Assembly (NCBI GenBank): GCA_029557965.1
Contig: JAKQIM010000042.1
Coordinates: forward strand, 1-64,000
From: Chloroflexota bacterium
Lineage (GTDB): Bacteria > Chloroflexota > Anaerolineae > Anaerolineales > UBA4823
DNA length: 64,000 bases
Direction: 5' to 3'
Part shown: piece after piece, positions 45,949 to 59,215 of the stretch
How the letters are laid out: each line of letters begins with the position of its first letter
Position numbering within the stretch: position 1 is the first letter of the stretch
Translations under genes and position numbers: made by a program
The notes under the pieces: model-generated
What the model saw: only the letters and a program-made list of their open reading frames with translations
Databases searched by the model: none
What the model was told of the DNA's origin: nothing

Positions 45949-48855
45949 CTAGCGTGAAGTGAGCGGCAAGAAGGTCTGGTAGCTGTTTAGGTAGATCACC
46001 AGGTCGTAACTGGAATCACACCTGCCGCCCGAGTATTCATAAGGCGAGACTTTTAGATAATACATCCCCGCGGCAGAAGGCGTCCAATATAGCTCAGACT
46101 CAAGGGTAGCACTGTTCCGGTCATCGTTGGTTGCCACCTGGGTATAGCTGTCATCAGGGCCGTAGAGGGTCAGCACAGTATCTGCCATCTGCCCCAGGTG
46201 AGTGGTGAAGATGCGCACAGACTGTCCAACCATGTCTGCGCTAACCGGCAGGACAACCCAATCTTGGTCTTCATATGCATCAAAAGTATGGGTAGTACGC
46301 CCGCTGTAAGCCGGAGCCGTGTTGAAACTATCGTCATTGTCCTCGTAGGCATCTGGCAGCGAATACTGGGGTGGCGTCTGGTTGCGAATCTCGTTTCCAT
46401 CCGGGCGGTAATAAGACACATACGGCTGAACACAATTGTTACCGATGGTCACATCGATACATCCAAAATCCGTATAGATGTACTCGTCGATAAAGGCTGT
46501 GCTGTAATTGCCGCTGGCATCGGTCGACACCTGGTTAGAAAAGCTATCACTGCACCAACCATCTTTACCACACCAATAGTCGACCCACACGCCCGCCTCC
46601 ACCAATGAATTAGCCGGCGCCTGGCCCTCAATGGTTTGAGTATTCGCATTCCCGGCTATGGTCAAGATAGGCAGGGTAATATCAAAAAAGAGATCACTGC
46701 TGATCAGCAAACGGTTGCCAGCCTGCAAAGGTTGATCAAAGTCGCCGTAATAAGAGCTATCGGTCTCACTTGACACACCATCAAAGGAGTCAAGCAAGCT
46801 GCTGCCATTCCAAGCCTCGCCATGTACATTCGTATTGGGGCTCAGGGTGTATCCCCACGCATCGCCAGAATACAGGTTGACATTCGCAGACGCGGCCTGA
46901 AGATAACGGTAGTTCACATTGCCATTGGTATCCCGGCTGTAGATGTTCGCATCATCAGTGGCGCCAATGGCAAAGTTGCTGTAATCGATGTTGAAAGCTT
47001 CACCCGAGACCGTCAATTCCCGGCAGTCATAGTAGTAGTAACCAGTTTCGGGCCTGAAATCATACAACTTTACCACCAGGGGGCCATTAGGAGCCACGCC
47101 CGCTATGCGCTCGGTGTTGTTATTGAGCGTACCGTTCAACGCCTGGATGGTCATAGTCTCGGTCATCACGCCGTTGCCGACTTCGAGGATATCTCCTGCT
47201 TCCATGTCCACGTCAAAATAGGTGTAGAAGGCGCCTGAAGAGGAGGTTGCATCGACTTGCGAATCTTTCAAGGAATGGGATTGGTCATACAAGTTGGCCG
47301 TTACGTCGGTGTAAGGCACATCCCAATAGCCACGCGCAGAATCATAGTTCAGATAGGCTGCAATCACCCGGCTGTACAGGCGTTGATATTGGTAATTGCC
47401 TTGGGCATCGTACACATAAAAATAGCCGTAATCACCGGGGCGGAAGGTAAACCCCAAGGGCAGGCTGAAGTTACCACTGCCATTGGCAGTGGCGGTAAGG
47501 CAGTACGCACCACTACATTGGTACCTGCCATAAATGTTGGCTATCACATACCGCCCGGGTGCGGTAGTGCCCAGGATCTGGTTAGAGCCCGGCGTAGTAA
47601 TGAGCGTTAAGGGCGCCACCGTGTAGGAATAATCCACACCCGTCCCCACCACGCGAATCACATCCCCAGCCTGGAAAAGGTTACTTGGGTAGATGAAAAA
47701 GAATCCGTTGGAAGATGTTTGACCGGTGAAAGTTTCAATCACCGACGCTCCGCGCGTCAGCGTGACCGTATAAGCATCATCAGGCTGGATCATGCCGTAG
47801 GCATAATCGCTGCCTACGCCTTCGGCGTAGATATAAAAAGCATCAAAGCCAACATACGTGCTGTTGCCATTGGCATCGCGAGCATAGGCATAAGCATAAG
47901 ATTGACCTTTAAAGTCCACCTGGCTGCTGAAGTCATAGGCGAAATTGCCCAGCGCGTCCAGTCCGGTAGACACCGTGTAAGGGGTTAAACCCTCGCATCG
48001 ACCAAATACACTGTACAGGTGAATATCGATGTATCTGCCAGGGGCCTGGGCAATGCCGCCTACCACATTGCTAAAAGTATTGGCCCAGGCAATCATATCC
48101 ACCACCTCGGTAGTAATGGTGCTGCCACCAGCAGTTACCTCTATGATGTCACCCGTATGGGCTTCCCATTCGTAATGGCCATTGCAGCCGCCTGTCCAAT
48201 CGTTGTAGATCGAATAGATGCCATCTTCAGAACTGGTGGTTGAATCAGTAGCCACAACCTGCCCCTGGCGCAGAACGCGCAGGGTAACCAGGGCATTAGA
48301 AGTTGTGCGGCCTTGAACAACTTCAACCCGTCCATTATACGTAAACACATCAATGCTGGGATTGGTCGCCTGGGTGTTATCAGGCGGGGGCACCGTGCGC
48401 CCAGAGCGCAGCGCCTCCGCTTCCAGGCGCTCCATATATCCCGGTGCGCAGCTAGGGATGGGAGAAAATGCCTGGTAACGAGAGAGATCCGCTACCCTAT
48501 CCAACGATTGGACCACGTCCGGGACGCCAGTCATCACCGAGATCGCATTCCGGTCAGGCAAGAGCGCAAACGAGGCCACCTGTCCGCTTTGCTGAAGAGC
48601 ATGCAGTTCATCCAGCGTGGGTTGGGCTTGCTCGCGGATGGCCTCAGCTACAAAACTGGCCGCGTCCTTGGGCGAGATGCCCCGCGGTGCGGCGCTCAAG
48701 TCGGGCGTCTCAAGCCACAGGATGTATTGCCTTGGCGCATCGCCCTGTGCTGGTGCATCAACCGGCGGCTGCGGTGTTTGAGCCAGAGCGGCAGCGCTGC
48801 TCAACACAGCCAGCGCTACCATGACGACAATAAGCAACGAAGTCTTACGCTTCAT
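45949..48855 (-). CDS. Large secreted repeat protein with C-terminal PPC domain
   Basis: This 968-residue exported protein has a signal peptide (1-25, ending ALA). After an N-terminal region with inhibitor-like features (YILWLETPD...DELHALQQSG), it is built from about four repeats of some 130-150 residues. Each pairs a Tyr/Gly-rich beta module with a carboxypeptidase-like beta-sandwich that contains a short disulfide-sized Cys pair (FGRCEG; YQCSGAYC; YYDCREL; YWCGKDGWC). The C-terminus is a bacterial pre-peptidase C-terminal (PPC) domain (DAYEDNDDSFNTA; YYLKVSPY) ending TFLPLTSR. No transmembrane anchor or catalytic motif is evident; it is likely an adhesin or surface-layer component. Confidence 0.85.
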   Translation of the reverse strand: MKRKTSLLIVVMVALAVLSSAAALAQTPQPPVDAPAQGDAPRQYILWLETPDLSAAPRGISPKDAASFVAEAIREQAQPTLDELHALQQSGQVASFALLPDRNAISVMTGVPDVVQSLDRVADLSRYQAFSPIPSCAPGYMERLEAEALRSGRTVPPPDNTQATNPSIDVFTYNGRVEVVQGRTTSNALVTLRVLRQGQVVATDSTTSSEDGIYSIYNDWTGGCNGHYEWEAHTGDIIEVTAGGSTITTEVVDMIAWANTFSNVVGGIAQAPGRYIDIHLYSVFGRCEGLTPYTVSTGLDALGNFAYDFSSQVDFKGQSYAYAYARDANGNSTYVGFDAFYIYAEGVGSDYAYGMIQPDDAYTVTLTRGASVIETFTGQTSSNGFFFIYPSNLFQAGDVIRVVGTGVDYSYTVAPLTLITTPGSNQILGTTAPGRYVIANIYGRYQCSGAYCLTATANGSGNFSLPLGFTFRPGDYGYFYVYDAQGNYQYQRLYSRVIAAYLNYDSARGYWDVPYTDVTANLYDQSHSLKDSQVDATSSSGAFYTYFDVDMEAGDILEVGNGVMTETMTIQALNGTLNNNTERIAGVAPNGPLVVKLYDFRPETGYYYYDCRELTVSGEAFNIDYSNFAIGATDDANIYSRDTNGNVNYRYLQAASANVNLYSGDAWGYTLSPNTNVHGEAWNGSSLLDSFDGVSSETDSSYYGDFDQPLQAGNRLLISSDLFFDITLPILTIAGNANTQTIEGQAPANSLVEAGVWVDYWCGKDGWCSDSFSNQVSTDASGNYSTAFIDEYIYTDFGCIDVTIGNNCVQPYVSYYRPDGNEIRNQTPPQYSLPDAYEDNDDSFNTAPAYSGRTTHTFDAYEDQDWVVLPVSADMVGQSVRIFTTHLGQMADTVLTLYGPDDSYTQVATNDDRNSATLESELYWTPSAAGMYYLKVSPYEYSGGRCDSSYDLVIYLNSYQTFLPLTSR

Positions 48856-49120: not shown

Positions 49121-49927
49121 ATGTCATCTCTCACATCCTTCCTGGCCCGCCTGGAAGCCGGCTTGCAAACCCTGATCGAAGGCCTGGCCGGGAGACTGTT
49201 CCACTCAAAGCAAAGCCCAGACGCCCTGGGCATCTGCCTGCAGCAAGCCCTGGAGAGGGCGGCCCAACCCCCACTGGCCCCCGATCTGTACACCATTGTG
49301 CTCGCGCCCGAGGCGGCGCAGGCCCTGGCAGACGACCTGGCCCACCAGGACCGGCTGCGGGCCGGCCTGGAATGCCTGGCTGCCGAGCGAGGCCTGACCC
49401 TGGCCGCGCCGCCCATCTTGCGCATTGTGCCTGACCCGGCGGCGCAGCAGGCAGCGGCGCAAGCCAGCTTCTCATCCAACCTTGGAGAGACTGGCACTGT
49501 CGAATTGGGTGGCGCAGTTGGCCTCGAACCGGGTGAACTGCATCCCGGCGTTCAGCTGCTCCCACTTTCTGTGCCTGATTTCTTGATCGTCAACGGTGTG
49601 CAAACCTTTGTGGTAGACCGCCCCCTGGTCACCATTGGCCGCGACCCTGGCAATGACCTGGCCCTAGACGACCCGCGCGTCTCCCGCCAGCATGCTCAAC
49701 TGCGCCTGGTGCCCGTCAGCGGCAGCATGCCCCGCTACGTGATCTTTGACCTGGGCTCAACCGGCGGTACCTTTGTCAACGGGCAGCCCGTAACCCAGCA
49801 CAGCCTCTCCCCCGGTGATGTGATCTCCCTGGCTGGCCTGCCGATTGTCTATGGACGAGAAGGGGAAACAAGCACCGAACCCACCCAAGAAATCGATGTT
49901 CCCCCACCGCCCGAGACGGTGGGCTGA
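49121..49927 (+). CDS. DUF3662-FHA protein (FhaA-like)
   Basis: This 268-residue protein has an N-terminal DUF3662 domain (LARLEAGLQTLIEGLAGRLFHSKQSP) and a C-terminal FHA domain with GRDPGNDL, SRQHAQL and GSTGGTFVNG, the phosphothreonine-binding loops. This is the layout of actinobacterial FhaA, which scaffolds cell-wall and Ser/Thr-kinase signalling. The partner FHA protein follows 26 bp later. In actinobacteria this pair sits beside kinase, phosphatase and RodA/PBP genes, which are not present here. Confidence 0.9.
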   Translation: MSSLTSFLARLEAGLQTLIEGLAGRLFHSKQSPDALGICLQQALERAAQPPLAPDLYTIVLAPEAAQALADDLAHQDRLRAGLECLAAERGLTLAAPPILRIVPDPAAQQAAAQASFSSNLGETGTVELGGAVGLEPGELHPGVQLLPLSVPDFLIVNGVQTFVVDRPLVTIGRDPGNDLALDDPRVSRQHAQLRLVPVSGSMPRYVIFDLGSTGGTFVNGQPVTQHSLSPGDVISLAGLPIVYGREGETSTEPTQEIDVPPPPETVG

Positions 49928-49953
49928 AGGCTTTGTGAGGTACAATACAGCCC

Positions 49954-50391
49954 ATGAGCGGTCCTATCCTTTTGATCCTGCGCCTGCTGATAGCAGCCTT
50001 GCTATATGCCTTCTTAGGGTGGGCCCTGTACACCATCTGGCGCGACCTGCAGCAGCAATCCCAGGCGCTGGCGGCTCGCCAGGCCCCGCCCTTCAGCCTG
50101 GTGCTGAAATCTGATGCCGTCCCTGGGACAGAAGATACCCAGCCGCACAGCTTTGCCAAGACCGAGATCGTGCTGGGCCGCAGCCCAACTTGCGATTTGA
50201 CCCTCGACGACAAGACCATTTCGGCCCGCCATGCTCGCTGCGCCTACCATCACGGGCAGTGGTGGCTGGAGGACCTGGGCTCAACCAACGGCACCTTCAT
50301 CAATGGCGAAGTTGTGGAAACAAGCGTGGTCATCACCGATGGCGACGCGCTGCGGTTGGGCAGTGTGGTGGTCACAGTTAAGATCGGGTAA
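49954..50391 (+). CDS. Membrane-anchored FHA protein (FhaB-like)
   Basis: This 145-residue protein has one N-terminal transmembrane helix (about residues 5-27), a short linker, and an FHA domain with GRSPTCDL, SARHARC and GSTNGTFING. It resembles FhaB/FipA-type proteins that read phosphothreonine on kinase targets at the membrane. It forms a pair with the DUF3662-FHA gene. Confidence 0.9.
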   Translation: MSGPILLILRLLIAALLYAFLGWALYTIWRDLQQQSQALAARQAPPFSLVLKSDAVPGTEDTQPHSFAKTEIVLGRSPTCDLTLDDKTISARHARCAYHHGQWWLEDLGSTNGTFINGEVVETSVVITDGDALRLGSVVVTVKIG

Positions 50392-50806: not shown

Positions 50807-51844
50807 ATGAGTAAACGAGCCACTGCCGCAGAAGTTGCTGAGTTAGCTGGAGTATCTCGCACCACCGTTTCTTTCGTGTTGAACAATGTGGTTGGCATGC
50901 GGATCAGCGAAGAGACCCGCCAGCGGGTGCTGGACGCAGCCATCAAGCTCGATTACCACCCCGATGCAACTGCCCGGCGCATGGTGACAGGGCAGACCAA
51001 GATGATCGGATTTGTGATTCGGCAAAGCCCAGACCAGGCCTTTGCCGATCATTTTTTACCCCAGGTGCTGCACGGGATGAGCAAGGCCGTCTCGGCGCAG
51101 GGTTTTCACCTGCTGTTAGAAGTCATCCCCCCCGAAAATCATACCGGCGTATACATGAAATTGATCAACGAGCGGCACGTCGATGGGATCGTGCTTTCGG
51201 GGCCTCGCTCAGATGATATCGAGCTGAGGCGGGCATATGAAGAAGGGGCCAACATCGTCATGCTGGGCCAACTTCCGGGTGAGAAGATCCCCTTTGCAGA
51301 TGTCAATAACGTTGGCGGCGCCCAATTGGCTACCCAGCATTTGCTGGGGCTGGGCCATACCCGCATCGGGATGATCACCAATGCCCCCCTGGCCTACACC
51401 GCCAGCGCCGACCGCCTGGCAGGCTACCGTTTGGCTCTGGAAGAGGCCGGCCTCATCTACGATGAAAGCCTGGTGCGCCTGGGCAATTTCACCATGGAAA
51501 GCGGCGTCAAAGCCATGCACGAGCTGCTGGCGCTAAAAGAACGGCCCAGCGCCGTCTTTGTAGCCTCAGACACCGTGGCCCTGGGGGCCTTGCAGGCTGC
51601 CCAATTGGCCGGGCTGAAAGTGCCCCAAGACCTTGCCGTCTGTGGTTTTGACGATATCCCTTTGGCCCAATATGTTGACCCCGCCCTCACCACCGTACAA
51701 CTGCCCGCCTTTGGCCTGGGGTGGGCGGCGGCTGAAATGCTAATTCGCATGATCTCCAAAGACAAGGTCAAGAACCCATACATCATGCTCAACACAGACC
51801 TGATCATCCGCAACTCTTGCGGCGCCAGGTTGGCCCCGAAATAA
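50807..51844 (+). CDS. LacI/GalR-family repressor
   Basis: This 345-residue repressor has the family helix-turn-helix and hinge: ATAAEVAELAGVSRTTVSFVLNN and VLDAAIKLDYHPDATAR. A periplasmic-binding-protein-like sugar domain follows (MIGFVIRQSPDQ; DGIVLSGPR; GMITNAP; CGFDDIPLAQYVDP). It stands directly before an alpha-glucoside-type ABC transporter and a GH13 enzyme and should govern them, with an alpha-glucoside as the likely inducer. No second operator was found ahead of the binding-protein gene. Confidence 0.94.
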   Translation: MSKRATAAEVAELAGVSRTTVSFVLNNVVGMRISEETRQRVLDAAIKLDYHPDATARRMVTGQTKMIGFVIRQSPDQAFADHFLPQVLHGMSKAVSAQGFHLLLEVIPPENHTGVYMKLINERHVDGIVLSGPRSDDIELRRAYEEGANIVMLGQLPGEKIPFADVNNVGGAQLATQHLLGLGHTRIGMITNAPLAYTASADRLAGYRLALEEAGLIYDESLVRLGNFTMESGVKAMHELLALKERPSAVFVASDTVALGALQAAQLAGLKVPQDLAVCGFDDIPLAQYVDPALTTVQLPAFGLGWAAAEMLIRMISKDKVKNPYIMLNTDLIIRNSCGARLAPK

Positions 51845-52047: not shown

Positions 52048-53406
52048 ATGAAAAAGCAAGCTCTTTATTTGGTTTCGATCCTGATCATCTTTTCGATGAT
52101 CCTGTCGGCCTGCAGCCCAGCGACCGTAGAGGCTACCCAGGCCCCCGAAGCCACCCAGGCTCCTGCTGCCACCCAGGCGCCAGAGCCCACCGCCGCGCCA
52201 GAAACCAGTGCTGCGGGCACCATCGACTGCAAAGGCGCCCAGAGCGGCGATGTGGTCACCATGTTCTACCAGTGGTCGGGCAATGAAGAAGAACGCCTGA
52301 ACCAGATCCTGCAGCCCCTGGTCGACGCCTGCGGCATCGTCGTCCAGCCCGAATCCTCGCGCGACCAGGCCCTGCTCGACACCCGTGTGCAGGCCGGCAC
52401 CCCACCAGACATTGCCTTCTTCAACGTCACCCAGCTCGAGCAGTACCAGGACCTGCTGGTGCCCATGACCGACCTGGGTGCTAACGAAGCCAATTACCCC
52501 GCCTACTGGCGCGAGATCGGCACCATCAATGGCTCCTGGCTCGGCCTGCCCGTCAAGGCTGACCCCAAGACCCTCATCTGGTACAGCCCCGTGGCCTTCG
52601 AAGCCTTCGGCTATGAAGTTCCCACAACCTGGGATGAGCTCGAAGCCCTGGCTGACAAGATGGTCGCTGACGGCAATGTGCCCTGGTCCCTGGGCATGGA
52701 ATCTGGCGACGCCACCGGCTGGACCGGCTCTGACTTCATCCAAGATATCCTGCTCGTCACCCAGGGCCCCGATTACGTCATGGGCCTCATCAGCGGCGAG
52801 ATCCCCTACAACGATCCCGGCGTCAAGCAGGCTTACGAAATCTACGGCCGCTGGGCCTCTGATGCCGCCTACACCGTCGGCGGCGCCCAGGGCACCCTCG
52901 AAACCGGCTTCCTCGATGCCATCTACCTCGTCTTCCAGGACCCCTTCGCTGCCATGATGGTCAAGCAGTCTGGCTTCGCCGGCGGCGAGATCGCCAAGCA
53001 GTACCCTGAACTGGCCTATGGCACCGATTACGACTTCTTCGGCGTCCCCGGCGCACAGGGCCTGCAGGGCGGCTCTGACTGGATGATGGCTTTCAACAAC
53101 ACCCCCGCTGTCCAGGCCCTCGTGGCCTACCTCAGCAGCGAAGCCGGCGGCCAATCTTGGGCCGCAGCCGGTTTCGACGTCACCCCCAACTCGGCCGGCA
53201 TCAGCGCCTACACCGATGAGGCCCTGCTTAAGAAGGCTGAGATGCTCGCCAATGCCACCGGCTTCACCCCTGACCTTGGCGACACCATCCCCGGCGGCTT
53301 TGGCAGCGCCGAATGGGCCGCCATCATCAGCTACCTCAGCGGCGGCGACCTCGATGCTGCCCTCACCAACGTGGCAAACGTCCAGGCTGAAGCCCTGAAC
53401 AAGTAA
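52048..53406 (+). CDS. Alpha-glucoside-type ABC transporter binding lipoprotein
   Basis: This 452-residue extracellular sugar-binding protein has lipobox LSAC near residue 20, then a Thr/Ala/Pro/Gln-rich repeat linker (ATQAPEATQAP units), then a family 1 solute-binding fold (ARWASDAAYTVGG-like and GDFMLCHQ-type positions are only loosely kept). The overall look is closest to AglE. GGAGGA precedes the AUG at 52048; upstream in-frame sequence is untranslated. A terminator-like hairpin follows, which would let it be made in excess over the permeases. Confidence 0.9.
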   Translation: MKKQALYLVSILIIFSMILSACSPATVEATQAPEATQAPAATQAPEPTAAPETSAAGTIDCKGAQSGDVVTMFYQWSGNEEERLNQILQPLVDACGIVVQPESSRDQALLDTRVQAGTPPDIAFFNVTQLEQYQDLLVPMTDLGANEANYPAYWREIGTINGSWLGLPVKADPKTLIWYSPVAFEAFGYEVPTTWDELEALADKMVADGNVPWSLGMESGDATGWTGSDFIQDILLVTQGPDYVMGLISGEIPYNDPGVKQAYEIYGRWASDAAYTVGGAQGTLETGFLDAIYLVFQDPFAAMMVKQSGFAGGEIAKQYPELAYGTDYDFFGVPGAQGLQGGSDWMMAFNNTPAVQALVAYLSSEAGGQSWAAAGFDVTPNSAGISAYTDEALLKKAEMLANATGFTPDLGDTIPGGFGSAEWAAIISYLSGGDLDAALTNVANVQAEALNK

Positions 53407-53499: not shown

Positions 53500-54462
53500 A
53501 TGGCAAATAATGCTACTCCCCAAATTATGAAGCAGGGCCGGCTGACGCCGTGGTTATACCTGGCGCCGGCAATCATCGTGATGGGCTTTTTTATCATCTA
53601 CCCCATGTTCACCACGATCTGGCTCAGTTTTCAGAACCGGGATGGTACACAACCCGCCAGCGCCACCTGCGTAGAAGGCCGCCCGTGCTGGGGCATGTTC
53701 GAAAACTACCGCTACGCCCTGACCGCCGAACTGAACACCAGCACCATCCAGACCACATGGCAGACATTTTGGACCTCTTCCTACGGCAACACCATCAAAT
53801 GGATCGCTTTCATGGTCAGCGGCACGGTAGGGATCGGTCTGTTCTTTGCGGTCTTGGCCGAACGGGTCAAGTATGAGGCACTGGCAAAAGCCATCATTTT
53901 CATGCCAATGGCCATTTCCTTCGTTGGGGCCGGCGTGATCTGGGGCTTCGTTTACGATTACGGCGCGGGAGATAAACAAATCGGCCTGCTCAACGCCATC
54001 ATCACCGGCCTGGGGTTCAAGCCCATGGCCTTTATGTCAACCCCCGGCGCCAACACAATTGCCTTGATCGTGGTGGGCATCTGGATCTGGACCGGCTTTT
54101 GCATGACCGTGCTGGCCGCGGCACTCAAATCGGTGCCCGATGAGATCCTCGAAGCGGCGCGCGTGGATGGCGCCAACGAATGGCGGGTATTTTGGTCTGT
54201 CATGGTGCCGATCATCATGCCCACCATCACTGTGGTGGTCACCACCATGGTGATCAACGTCCTCAAGCTGTTTGACATCGTCTATGTGATGACAGGCGGC
54301 AATTACGGCACCGAGGTGATCGCCAACCGCATGTACACCGAGATGTATATCAACTTTAATACCGGGCGCGGCACTGCGGTAGCGGTGATCCTGGTGGTGC
54401 TGATCATCCCCTTTGTTTACCTGAATATTCGCCGCTTCTTGGAACAGGAGGCGATGAGATGA
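53500..54462 (+). CDS. ABC sugar permease, MalF/AglF-like
   Basis: This 320-residue membrane permease has six helices. The EAA loop that docks the ATPase is EILEAARVDGANEWRVFWSVMVPIIMP. FQNRDG early in the first external loop is a mark of AglF-type alpha-glucoside permeases. That loop also holds two Cys five residues apart (ATCVEGRPCWG). The start at 53500 (MANNATP) precedes the first helix; upstream in-frame codons overlap the hairpin. Its stop overlaps the next permease start (ATGA). Confidence 0.92.
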   Translation: MANNATPQIMKQGRLTPWLYLAPAIIVMGFFIIYPMFTTIWLSFQNRDGTQPASATCVEGRPCWGMFENYRYALTAELNTSTIQTTWQTFWTSSYGNTIKWIAFMVSGTVGIGLFFAVLAERVKYEALAKAIIFMPMAISFVGAGVIWGFVYDYGAGDKQIGLLNAIITGLGFKPMAFMSTPGANTIALIVVGIWIWTGFCMTVLAAALKSVPDEILEAARVDGANEWRVFWSVMVPIIMPTITVVVTTMVINVLKLFDIVYVMTGGNYGTEVIANRMYTEMYINFNTGRGTAVAVILVVLIIPFVYLNIRRFLEQEAMR

Positions 54463-55658
54463 GCCAGAGCAAAATTACCCGCAGCAGTATCAATCGTTTC
54501 TTCAACCGCATGCCTCTGCACCTGGCAGTCATCGGCCTGATGCTCATCTGGCTTATCCCTACCATTGGCCTGCTGGTCACCTCGCTGCGCCCGGTACAGT
54601 CGATCAACACCAATGGCTGGTGGATGGTCATGGCGGCCCCTCCGGGGATGGAATCGTACAACCAGTACTGCGGAGAATGCCACGGACCAGACGGCAGCAA
54701 GATCGAAACCGCCGATCTGAGCGACCCGGCTGTGATCGAACAGTATCCACGCTCAATCCAACTGCTGGGCATGCTGCGCCAAGAGATCGATGGCCAGCCG
54801 CACATGGGCGACCTCGAGCTGCCATCTGCCCAAGAAGCCGCCGATATCGCTGCTCAGCTAAAGAAGATGGCCGGCGGCGAAGTCACCCCCCGGCTGACGC
54901 TCAACAACTACATCGACGCCCTGGTGGGCTACCGCGGCACCAACAATTACGTAGATGACTGCGAGGCCGGGGCCCAGGCTGCCGGCATGAACTGCAACAT
55001 CTCAGACCTGCTCAACCCACGCGGCATGGGGCGAGCCTTCATCAACAGCCTGATCGTGACCATCCCGGCGACTATCCTGCCGATCTTGTTTGCGGCCTTT
55101 GCCGGGTATGCCTTTGCCTGGCTCGATTTCAAGGGCCGCTATTGGCTGTTCGCCATCCTGGTGGGGCTGCAAGTCATCCCACTGCAAATGACGCTGGTCC
55201 CAATCTCTCGCCTATACGCACAACTGGGCCTGAACGGCACCTTCTGGGGCGTGTGGCTTTTCCACACCGGCTTTGGCATGCCCTACTCGATCTACCTGAT
55301 GCGCAACTTCTTGGGCACCCTGCCGCGCGACCTGTTCGAATCTGCTTACCTGGATGGGGCCTCCCACTGGACTGCCTTCTATAAGCTGGCCATCCCGCTG
55401 GCCATGCCGGCTATCGCCGCGCTGGCGATCTTCCAATTCCTGTGGGTCTGGAACGACCTGCTGGTTGCGCTGGTCTTCTTAGGCGGCAAGCACCCGGTGA
55501 TGACCTACCAGATCAGCAACATGGTCTCTTCGCTGGGCGCCGGTTGGCACCTGCTGACGGCTGCGGCCTTCTTATCCATGCTGCTGCCGATGATCGTTTT
55601 CTTCGCCTTCCAACGCTACTTTGTGCGCGGTATGCTGGCAGGGGCCGTCAAAGGATAA
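54459..55658 (+). CDS. ABC sugar permease (MalG/AglG-like) with inserted cytochrome c domain
   Basis: This 399-residue permease is normal from about residue 190 ([32 protein letters not shown] loop [21 protein letters not shown]). TM1 spans about 20-43. Between TM1 and TM2, on the extracytoplasmic side, an extra domain of about 62-138 reads as a mono-heme class I cytochrome c: Y70-C71-G-E-C74-H75 for covalent heme, M116 in QPHMGDL as the likely axial ligand, and a closing helix [14 protein letters not shown]. Normal family sequence resumes at [11 protein letters not shown] second short insert has two Cys (DDCEA; GMNCN). The architecture is the window's oddest. Confidence 0.88.
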
Positions 55659-55687: not shown

Positions 55688-57337
55688 ATGGATTTGGTAT
55701 CTCGTATGAGTGAAACCCTCTGGTACAAAAACGCTGTTTTCTATGAGCTGTACGTGCGCGCCTTTTGCGACAGCGACGCCGATGGGCAGGGCGACCTGCG
55801 CGGGCTGGCCTCCAGGCTGGATTACCTACAGAGCCTGGGCGTAGACTGCGTCTGGCTCCTGCCCATCTACCCCTCTCCTCTGCGCGATGATGGGTATGAT
55901 ATCGCCGATTTCTACAACATCCACCCCGATTTCGGCACCCTGGAAGATTTCAAGTATTTCTTGGATCGCGCCCACGAGCTGGGGCTGCGGGTAATCCTGG
56001 ACCTGGTTCTCAACCACACCTCAGATCAGCATCCCTGGTTCCAGGCAGCACGTGCCGACCGTAATTCGCCTTACCGCGATTATTACGTCTGGAGCGATAC
56101 CCCCGACAGGTACGCCGATGCTCGGATCATCTTCCTGGATATCGAAACCTCTAACTGGACCTGGGACGAGCAAGCCGGGCAGTACTTCTGGCACCGCTTT
56201 TTCTCCTCTCAGCCAGACCTGAACTACGAAAACCCCGCTGTGCAAGAAGAGATGTTGAAGGTGGTCAAGTTTTGGCTGGATATGGGCGTGGATGGCTTCA
56301 GGGCTGACGCCGTGCCCTACCTGTTCGAAGAAGAGGGCACCAACTGCGAGAACCTGCCCAAGACACACGTGTTCTTAAAGCGTTTGCGCCGCCATATCGA
56401 CGAGCACTATCCCGGCCGGGTTTTGTTGTGCGAGGCCAACCAATGGCCCGAAGATGTGCGCAGTTACTTTGGCGATGGAGATGAATTCCAGATGGGCTTC
56501 CATTTCCCGGTCATGCCGCGCATCTTCATGGCCCTGGCCACCGCCGACCGCACCCCGGTGGTGGAGATCTTGCAAGCCACGCCCGAGATCCCCGATTCTT
56601 GCCAGTGGTGCACCTTCTTGCGCAACCACGATGAGCTGACGTTGGAAATGGTGACGCCCGAAGAACGCACCTTTATGTGGAACACCTACGCGCCAGAGCC
56701 GCGCATGCGCCTGAACCTGGGCATCCGCCGCCGCCTGGCCCCCCTGCTGGACGGAGAACGCCGCAAGATCGAGCTGTTGAACTCAATCCTCTTCACCCTG
56801 CCCGGCTCGCCCATCATCTATTATGGAGATGAAATGGGAATGGGGGATGATATCTGGCTGCCCGACCGGGATGGCGTGCGCATGCCCATGCAGTGGGATG
56901 ACAGCCCCAATGCGGGCTTCTCTAACGCGCCGGCCGACCAGCTTTACCATGCCCCGGTTGAGGGGGTGGTGTTCGACTACCGCACCCTCAACGTGGCCGC
57001 CCAAAAAGCCGACCAGGGCTCTCTGTGGCACACCATCCGCAAGATGGTAGCCATGCGCAAGACCACCACCGCCTTCGGCTGCGGCGAGCTGGAATTCCTG
57101 GCGCCAGAGAACAAAAGCATCCTGGCCTTCACCCGCGGCTGCCAACAAGAAGTGATGCTGGTGGTGCACAACCTCTCAAGCACCCGGCAGGAGGTGGCCC
57201 TGGACCTCTTGGGGTGGCAGGGAGCTGCGGTCAAAGACATCCTCTCAGCCAAGGATTACCCGCCTGTTGGGCCAGGCCCCTACAGCCTGAACCTGGAGCC
57301 ATACGGATATCTCTGGCTGCGCTTGCAAAATGCCTGA
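55688..57337 (+). CDS. GH13 trehalose synthase-type enzyme
   Basis: This 549-residue GH13 enzyme is close to TreS, which interconverts maltose and trehalose. [28 protein letters not shown] is the family N-terminus. The catalytic nucleophile is D207 in GFRADAVPY, the acid is Glu in [10 protein letters not shown], and the third carboxylate is in FLRNHDEL. No maltokinase domain is fused. The start may be 55688 or AUG 55706; neither has a strong ribosome site. Cytoplasmic: it would process the alpha-glucoside imported by the transporter upstream, so it is probably part of the same transcript. Confidence 0.88.
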
Positions 57338-57428: not shown

Positions 57429-58175
57429 ATGTTCACGGTGAAACAGCTCTCCAAAATGGCCGGCGTAACCCCGCGCACCCTGCACTATTACGACCAGATC
57501 GGCCTGCTCAAACCCTCTCAAATAGGCGGGAACGGTTATCGTTACTATGGTGAGGAGGCCCTCTTACGCCTACAGCAGATCTTGCTTTATCGCGAGCTGG
57601 ACCTGCCACTGGAGGAGATCAAAGGGATCATCGAAAGCGATGATTTTGATATCCTGAAGTCGCTTGAAGAACACCAGACCCAGCTCTGCCAACGCAGGGC
57701 TCGCATCGAGCGCCTGATCGATACGGTGAACAACACCATCCTGCACCTGAAAGGAGAAAAAGAAATGAGCCCCAATCAACTATTCGACGTATTCAACGAG
57801 GAACAGCAGGCCGAGTACGAAAAAGAGGCCATGCAGATGTATGACCCCGAGGTGGTAAAAGCATCCTACAAAAAATGGAACCGCTACAGCACAGCCGAAA
57901 AACAGCGCATCGGCGAGGAGGGCAATGCCATCTACCAGGATATCCTCGCCGCCATGCCCAAGGGTGCCGCCTCGCCCGAGGTGCAGGCTGGCATCGAACG
58001 CTGGCGCCGCCATATGGATTACTTCTGGACGCCCAACCTGGAACAGCTCTTGGGCATCGCCCAGGGTTACAGCCAGGATCCACGCTTCAGGGCCAACTTC
58101 GACAAGGTGGACCCCCGCCTGGCAGATTTCATGCTTGAAGCGGTGGATATTTATGTTAAGAACGTGCGGCGCTAA
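57429..58175 (+). CDS. TipA-like MerR-family regulator
   Basis: This 248-residue regulator has a MerR winged helix (FTVKQLSKMAGVTPRTLHYYDQIGLLKP), a coiled-coil dimer helix (about 75-110), and a C-terminal TipAS domain (residues about 115-248; EEQQAEYEKEAMQMYDPEVVKASYKKW) that binds thiopeptide-like and other drugs. Such proteins activate their own promoter on binding the drug. The 19-bp-spacer promoter immediately upstream fits autoactivation. Its last codons form half of a terminator shared with the convergent gene. Confidence 0.93.
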   Translation: MFTVKQLSKMAGVTPRTLHYYDQIGLLKPSQIGGNGYRYYGEEALLRLQQILLYRELDLPLEEIKGIIESDDFDILKSLEEHQTQLCQRRARIERLIDTVNNTILHLKGEKEMSPNQLFDVFNEEQQAEYEKEAMQMYDPEVVKASYKKWNRYSTAEKQRIGEEGNAIYQDILAAMPKGAASPEVQAGIERWRRHMDYFWTPNLEQLLGIAQGYSQDPRFRANFDKVDPRLADFMLEAVDIYVKNVRR

Positions 58176-58191
58176 GGCACCGCACGTTCTT
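58158..58191. terminator. Bidirectional terminator lying inside both convergent coding ends
   Basis: AAGAACGTGCGG (58158-58169) pairs perfectly with CCGCACGTTCTT (58180-58191). GCTTTTT follows on the plus strand. The stem encodes the last residues of merR (KNVRR) on one strand and of the membrane protein on the other; the two stop codons overlap at 58172-58175. Confidence 0.9.
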
Positions 58192-59215
58192 GCTTTTTCG
58201 ACCGCCACAGGGCCAGCAGCCCGTTCCCCAGCATCAACAGCGACAGCACAAAGACGAAGATGACCCCTACCAGGTTGGGGTCTGGTGTACCTTGCGCCAG
58301 GTTGGAATAAGCGATGCCATCCAAGATCGAGATCAGGATCGCCAGCCCCAGCCCGCCCATGAGCGCCAGCACCCGCCGCAAAGGAGATGCGGCCCGGAAG
58401 TAGCCCCAGGCCCCCAGGCCCAGCCCCAGTGTGGTGGCAATGATCAAGGCCGGCAGGTGAGGGTTGTGGACAGAATCGAAGAGCATGAACATGTGGGCAT
58501 ACAAGACGTAAATGGCGAAGGATAAAAGCGTCCATTCCTTCCATAAGCCCGCTGCCAGAGTGCGCAGGGGCTGGATGCTGCGCCGTAGTAAGAGCGCCAG
58601 CACCATCACACCCAACAGCGGCAGCCACATCTCTCCGCCGAAATGATACCCATAAGAGCCCATGTCGCTCCACCACCAGCCAAACAGGATCGCCCAGGCC
58701 AGGTAAGCGTATCCCCAGCGCGGAAAGCCTTTGAGCAGACTGACCAATAAGCCAACCAGCACCAGCCAGTTGAACAACAGGAAGGGATGGCCGGTCAAGA
58801 CCTGCCACAAAGGCGGGTTGGCAGAATACGAGAGATGGAGGCCCAGTTTCTCAGCCAGGGTGCTGAGGCCAAACAGCAAGAAGGGCAGCACCGCCAGGAT
58901 TGTATCCCTCACCGGCAAGGCCGGCACCCCATCACTGCGGTTCAAGATGCTCGTTTGTGTCATTTCGCTTCTCCGTTTCAACAGGAGCTGTCCCCATTGG
59001 GCCAGCACCGTCCAGGTCCAATCCCACAGCACACCCAGCCACAGCCAGGCCAACCCGCTTATACCGGCCTCAGCATATTGGGCGCGGCACAGGCTGCGGA
59101 AGACCTGTGCCATCTCGCCTGCAAAGCGCGTGCGAAAGGCCGGCGGGTAATAACCCAGCAAGCGGCGGTAGAGGCGATCAGACCAGGCCAACTGCGGGGT
59201 ATCCATCCAGCTCAC
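58172..59215 (-). CDS. Multi-pass membrane protein controlled with PadR
   Basis: This 347-residue protein has an N-terminal cytoplasmic segment (DRLYRRLLGYYPPAFRTRFAGEMAQVF), typical of a permease-prefix domain, followed by about seven to eight transmembrane helices. The permease-prefix segment is known to pair with PadR regulators in antibiotic-stress modules. Its start overlaps the padR stop (ATGA), so the two are co-translated. The substrate is unknown. Confidence 0.8.
   Translation of the reverse strand: MSWMDTPQLAWSDRLYRRLLGYYPPAFRTRFAGEMAQVFRSLCRAQYAEAGISGLAWLWLGVLWDWTWTVLAQWGQLLLKRRSEMTQTSILNRSDGVPALPVRDTILAVLPFLLFGLSTLAEKLGLHLSYSANPPLWQVLTGHPFLLFNWLVLVGLLVSLLKGFPRWGYAYLAWAILFGWWWSDMGSYGYHFGGEMWLPLLGVMVLALLLRRSIQPLRTLAAGLWKEWTLLSFAIYVLYAHMFMLFDSVHNPHLPALIIATTLGLGLGAWGYFRAASPLRRVLALMGGLGLAILISILDGIAYSNLAQGTPDPNLVGVIFVFVLSLLMLGNGLLALWRSKKQERAVP

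Follow-up and report, generated by a model that had tools for sequence, protein, structure and literature searches.

The usual regulation of sugar importers acts from within the cell, through PTS proteins, ligands of the ATPase subunits or transcription. The described systems closest to the importer reported here are LpqY-SugABC, with the permease SugB, and Escherichia coli MalFGK2, with the permease MalG; both resemble it in fold and in an operon context of trehalose or maltose enzymes. In contrast to the permease of our locus, SugB and MalG have no cytochrome domain, and the sugar-binding protein (SBP) of our locus matches AcbH, whereas LpqY was not among its sequence matches to solved structures. 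To our knowledge, the ABC transporter CydDC contains no c-type heme domain. Effects of heme on the ATPase activity of CydDC have been published (PMC4132815), and CydDC is an exporter-type transporter for which heme is reported as a modulator or substrate, which sets it apart from the protein considered here. Cytochrome c domains are known to share one open reading frame (ORF) with the iron permease FTR1 and, among Chloroflexi, with the nitrite reductase NirS (PMC8756737). These fusions are comparable in that they, too, link cytochrome c to a different membrane or redox protein, but FTR1 is not an ABC protein, NirS is an enzyme, and neither is an insertion into the loop of a sugar permease. Finally, the class I mono-heme cytochromes c, among them CcoP domains and MtoD, a published class 1 cytochrome with bis-His ligation (PMC4412085), share with the domain described below the CxxCH motif, the Cytochrome_CBB3 profile and the cytochrome fold. 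In the literature that we searched, which included few subscription papers, we found no ABC permease described as carrying a c-type cytochrome; this agrees with a preliminary description of the same DNA, made from its letters, whose author knew of no such transporter.

The locus lies in a window of 64,000 nucleotides, by which we mean the whole stretch of DNA analyzed. The window lies on a single contig of a draft genome that is 56% complete, and the closest relatives found were Anaerolineales metagenome-assembled genomes (Chloroflexota). An operon in the window encodes, in order, a LacI-family regulator, a sugar-binding lipoprotein, a MalF-like permease, a MalG-like permease carrying the cytochrome domain, and TreS (Table 1). 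Orthologs with and without the heme motif, referred to below as heme-bearing and heme-less, lie in the same operon, in which TreS usually follows the permease of the heme-bearing ones. Elsewhere, the gene after the permease encodes TreT_GT1 (L036 and L037), a GH65 protein (L046) or a GH63/trehalase-like hydrolase (L014, L017 and L031). Because these neighboring genes are trehalose related and the fold of the permease matches that of SugB, the substrate of this CUT1-type importer is most likely trehalose or a related disaccharide or alpha-glucoside. On one side of the operon are two adjoining FHA-domain proteins (49121-50391, +), of which the first matches FhaA_N, and a secreted-looking protein of 968 amino acids without a Pfam match (45949-48855, -). 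On the other side, a MerR/TipAS regulator (57429-58175, +) faces a membrane-like protein of 347 amino acids, likewise without a Pfam match (58172-59215, -).

Table 1. Features of the sugar importer operon and of its cytochrome-bearing permease (window coordinates)
Feature	Position	Strand	Evidence or remark
LacI-family regulator of operon	50807..51844	+	Pfam LacI and Peripla_BP_3; upstream of orthologs too
Sugar-binding lipoprotein (SBP)	52048..53406	+	Matches solved sugar-binding proteins, best AcbH; operon member in relatives
MalF-like permease subunit	53500..54462	+	Pfam BPD_transp_1, 1e-20
MalG/SugB-like permease with inserted cytochrome c domain, 399 aa	54459..55658	+	AF2, Foldseek, Pfam
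TM1 helix, residues 8-43	54480..54587	+	AF2 secondary structure
Inserted mono-heme c-type cytochrome domain (putative heme binding), about residues 62-140	54642..54878	+	Pfam, conservation, isolated-domain model
CGECH heme attachment motif, residues 71-75	54669..54683	+	C71, C74 and H75 invariant, 41/41
H115, probable distal heme ligand	54801..54803	+	Invariant
M116	54804..54806	+	Variable among orthologs
LTLNNY-to-TM2 region with lineage-specific hairpin, residues 148-190	54900..55028	+	
C168	54960-54962	+	Invariant
C179	54993-54995	+	Invariant
BPD_transp_1 permease core, residues 212-392	55092..55634	+	Pfam E 2.8e-15
TreS-type maltose/trehalose enzyme	55706..57337	+	NCBIfam TIGR02456, 865 bits (cut-off 678)

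The MalG-like protein can be assigned to the MalG/CUT1 permeases by its BPD_transp_1 core, its MalG-like fold and an operon shared with a MalF partner and an SBP. Its AF2 model had a mean pLDDT of 88.4, with block means of about 90-95 in the cytochrome core, and the best Foldseek matches of the whole-protein model were SugB of LpqY-SugABC and MalG. An insert of ~80 residues sits in the permease's first outer loop, after TM1 and before the LTLNNY segment. Pfam placed Cytochrome_CBB3 (PF13442) at residues 61-132 with an E-value of 2.4e-4, which is below the curated cut-off (25.9 bits versus 27). The same profile was matched by all 41 aligned insert domains, with a best E-value of 2.7e-8. When the domain was modeled alone, its core reached a pLDDT of 91-93, and the Foldseek matches listed for it were cytochromes or proteins that contain a cytochrome, although their E-values were weak (best, 8.5e-3; probability, 0.99). 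By its CxxCH motif, family profile and predicted fold, the insert is a class I c-type cytochrome domain with putative heme binding. Given the protein families involved, the domain would be exposed on the membrane's outer face, the side of c-type heme attachment. The preliminary description had seen a complete mono-heme cytochrome domain with a CGECH motif between TM1 and LTLNNY of a MalG-type permease, a view borne out by the ORF, by Pfam and by the 41 permeases.

To survey the distribution of the insert, 84,980 species genomes were scanned by exact peptide words, and the best 80 loci were taken. A CxxCH motif was present at the same position in 40 of these loci, all from Chloroflexota assemblies; the window's own locus makes 41. 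Another 15 of the 80, of the Anaerolineaceae type, were without the CxxCH insert, and no insert was found in the remaining, mostly actinobacterial, homologs. As the scan matched exact peptide words, permeases with the insert may also occur outside the Anaerolineae. In one heme-less locus (L061:4688-6666, +) the coding sequence of MalG falls into two frames, which reflects either a broken gene or an assembly error. A search of 396 genomes of the class with the DNA pattern GWW...CxxCHG gave many chance matches and was too loose for counting members. Of the pattern places, 20 were read out: 16 hold insert-bearing orthologs, in part from genomes that were already in the set, and the other four (L090, L091, L105 and L106) do not. 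The last of these (L106:3432-5588, +) is a frame of 719 amino acids with seven CxxCH motifs that is unrelated to the permease. Together, the pattern scan and the read-out place insert-bearing orthologs in several families of the class. Assembly artefact and chance are ruled out by the 40 additional genome loci that retain the insert; a check of related genomes had been proposed earlier, on the grounds that absence of the insert there would have meant an artefact. The insertion, called clean at the outset, is indeed a clean and ancient one, and it occupies the same position in all 41 permeases.

The heme site itself is strictly conserved. C71, C74, H75 and H115 are invariant in the 41 aligned permeases, and the distinct domains each have one CxxCH and no other Cys. 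The second His was present in every one of the 51 distinct domains, 40 residues after the proximal His in 49 and 41 residues after it in 2. The residue that follows H115 is Met in 29 of these domains, Leu in 11, Val in 7, Ile in 3 and Thr in 1; thus, 22 of the 51 have another residue in place of the Met, and 20 lack a Met nearby. Among the aligned permeases, M116 is a Met in 26 of 41. Because H115 is always present while the adjoining M116 is often replaced, bis-His coordination by H75 and H115 is likelier than His/Met coordination, to judge by the alignment. The preliminary description had included a distal Met in the domain; on conservation, M116 is rejected in favor of H115. The domain thereby departs from the class I cytochromes, in which a distal Met is usual, and it differs from them also in sitting in the outer loop of an ABC permease.

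A further suggestion of the preliminary description, that heme might pass electrons along the transporter, does not fit these data well. Each domain has a single heme site, and no second cofactor motif was seen in MalF or MalG, so that the transporter is unlikely to act as a transmembrane electron wire. A single outer heme could alter conformation or docking and could exchange electrons with other external cytochromes.

We asked how heme-less orthologs are related to heme-bearing ones. In a tree built from the permease columns, the heme-less clade was nested inside the heme-bearing orthologs, but an AU test on this permease-only alignment did not reject monophyly of the heme-bearing group (p-AU, 0.32). 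Concatenation of MalF, SBP and MalG led to rejection of that monophyly (delta lnL, 132; p-AU, about 1e-60) and placed the heme-less orthologs as sister to L021, a heme-bearing member of the Anaerolineaceae (SH-aLRT, 99.9). Because the three-gene tree nests heme-less within heme-bearing orthologs, it indicates that the cytochrome domain was present in the ancestor of the clade and was lost in part of the Anaerolineaceae. Gain of the domain after the heme-less lineage had split off is rejected by the same tree, although the permease-only tree could not reject it. Since support for a single heme-less group is weak (51.6), the number of losses is possibly one or a few.

If the heme has a respiratory role, the genes for heme attachment and respiration might be expected to accompany it. 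Ccm genes (PF01578) were found in 36 of 36 heme-bearing and 9 of 15 heme-less genomes tested. An O2 reductase of the COX1 family or cytochrome bd was found in 33 of 36 versus 2 of 15, where the COX1 profile (PF00115) takes in NO reductases too and some genomes are incomplete. Ccm genes and an O2 reductase occurred together in 33 of 36 heme-bearing genomes versus 0 of 15 heme-less ones, a contrast that is mostly one clade-level difference, so that neither the genome counts nor their p-values are independent. The two heme-less genomes with an oxidase (L046 and L047) had no PF01578 match. The window's own genome contains Ccm genes (PF01578), and no O2 reductase was found in its 56% complete assembly. 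On another contig of that genome (genome G000, contig C55, 6756-14132, -), two PF01578 (Ccm-type) matches flank a frame of 697 amino acids with two Cytochrome_CBB3 matches. The gene distribution is as predicted for a heme with a respiratory role and suggests such a role, and the Ccm and oxidase gene counts point to a fermentative heme-less lineage.

The reading that we favor, to which we give a probability of about 0.45, is that the cytochrome is a redox-responsive domain linking sugar import to the respiratory cytochrome pool. One c-heme, covalently attached by the Ccm system and probably held by H75 and H115, would lie outside the membrane in a domain that loops out between TM1 and the remaining permease. 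Electrons would pass between the heme and the respiratory c-type cytochromes of the same cell, and the redox state of the heme would adjust the engagement of the binding protein with the permease, so that sugar uptake would track the respiratory state. The preliminary description had suggested that import is coupled to, or gated by, the external redox state; redox gating may occur, and it fits the distribution of the domain. More doubtful is the proposal that the attached c-heme, touching the respiratory chain, sets the rate of uptake through its redox state, which would make this the first known heme-gated sugar importer. Gating of this kind, if it occurs, would be a direct link at the protein level from electron transport to carbon uptake. 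A conserved external heme on a permease would allow respiration to control carbon uptake without a signaling step, and the heme-less orthologs, which share the operon context, are natural controls. We rank redox-responsive control first, followed by a docking tether, a surface electron-transfer partner, a passenger or structural role and a gas sensor.

The domain might serve as a tether that keeps the importer beside respiratory complexes or external cytochromes, with the redox state of the heme having no effect on transport. The retention of the domain by respiring lineages and the invariance of the heme site are compatible with such a function, but the net charge of the cytochrome domain ranges from -10 to +3 across orthologs, which gives no sign of a conserved charged face for docking, and no partner was identified. 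We therefore consider a tether unlikely. It is less likely again that the permease merely anchors a heme that trades electrons with an external redox enzyme near the importer. Cytochrome domains often play such a part (PMC8756737), and respiratory chains are present in the heme-bearing genomes, yet the operon encodes no redox enzyme and the neighboring genes are for glycoside enzymes.

If instead the loop is simply permissive, the domain could be a passenger or structural element whose heme has little or no function. Loss of the domain is evidently tolerated, as the operon is intact in the heme-less orthologs of the Anaerolineaceae. Moreover, in every pair for which both ratios could be computed, dN/dS was higher in the domain than elsewhere in the protein, and the domain evolved faster than the permease in most pairs. 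However, its dN/dS was 0.07-0.28 in the 10 of 13 pairs for which dS was computable, which indicates purifying selection, and the domain has been kept with invariant ligands in many families of the class. This makes a passenger improbable, and we place it below an electron-transfer partner. Regulation of import by O2, NO or CO binding at the heme can be largely set aside, despite the external position of the heme in lineages with O2 reductases, as the invariant second His suggests a six-coordinate heme with no free site.

The permease has a second conserved element. The flanking permease sequence had been called normal, which does not hold for the region that follows LTLNNY, where there is a second, lineage-specific insertion containing C168 and C179. 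These two residues are invariant in heme-bearing (41/41) and heme-less (14/14) orthologs, and the hairpin is absent from outgroup permeases. The conserved pair probably forms a disulfide. That all 14 heme-less orthologs compared retain the hairpin weakens the idea that heme and Cys hairpin act as a single redox unit. Conserved Cys residues also occur in the MalF-like subunit (alignment columns 58, 64 and 202) and, as a pair, in the SBP (alignment columns 62 and 96). We infer that the Cys pairs of the MalG hairpin, MalF and the SBP are structural disulfides of the external parts of the importer, independent of the heme.
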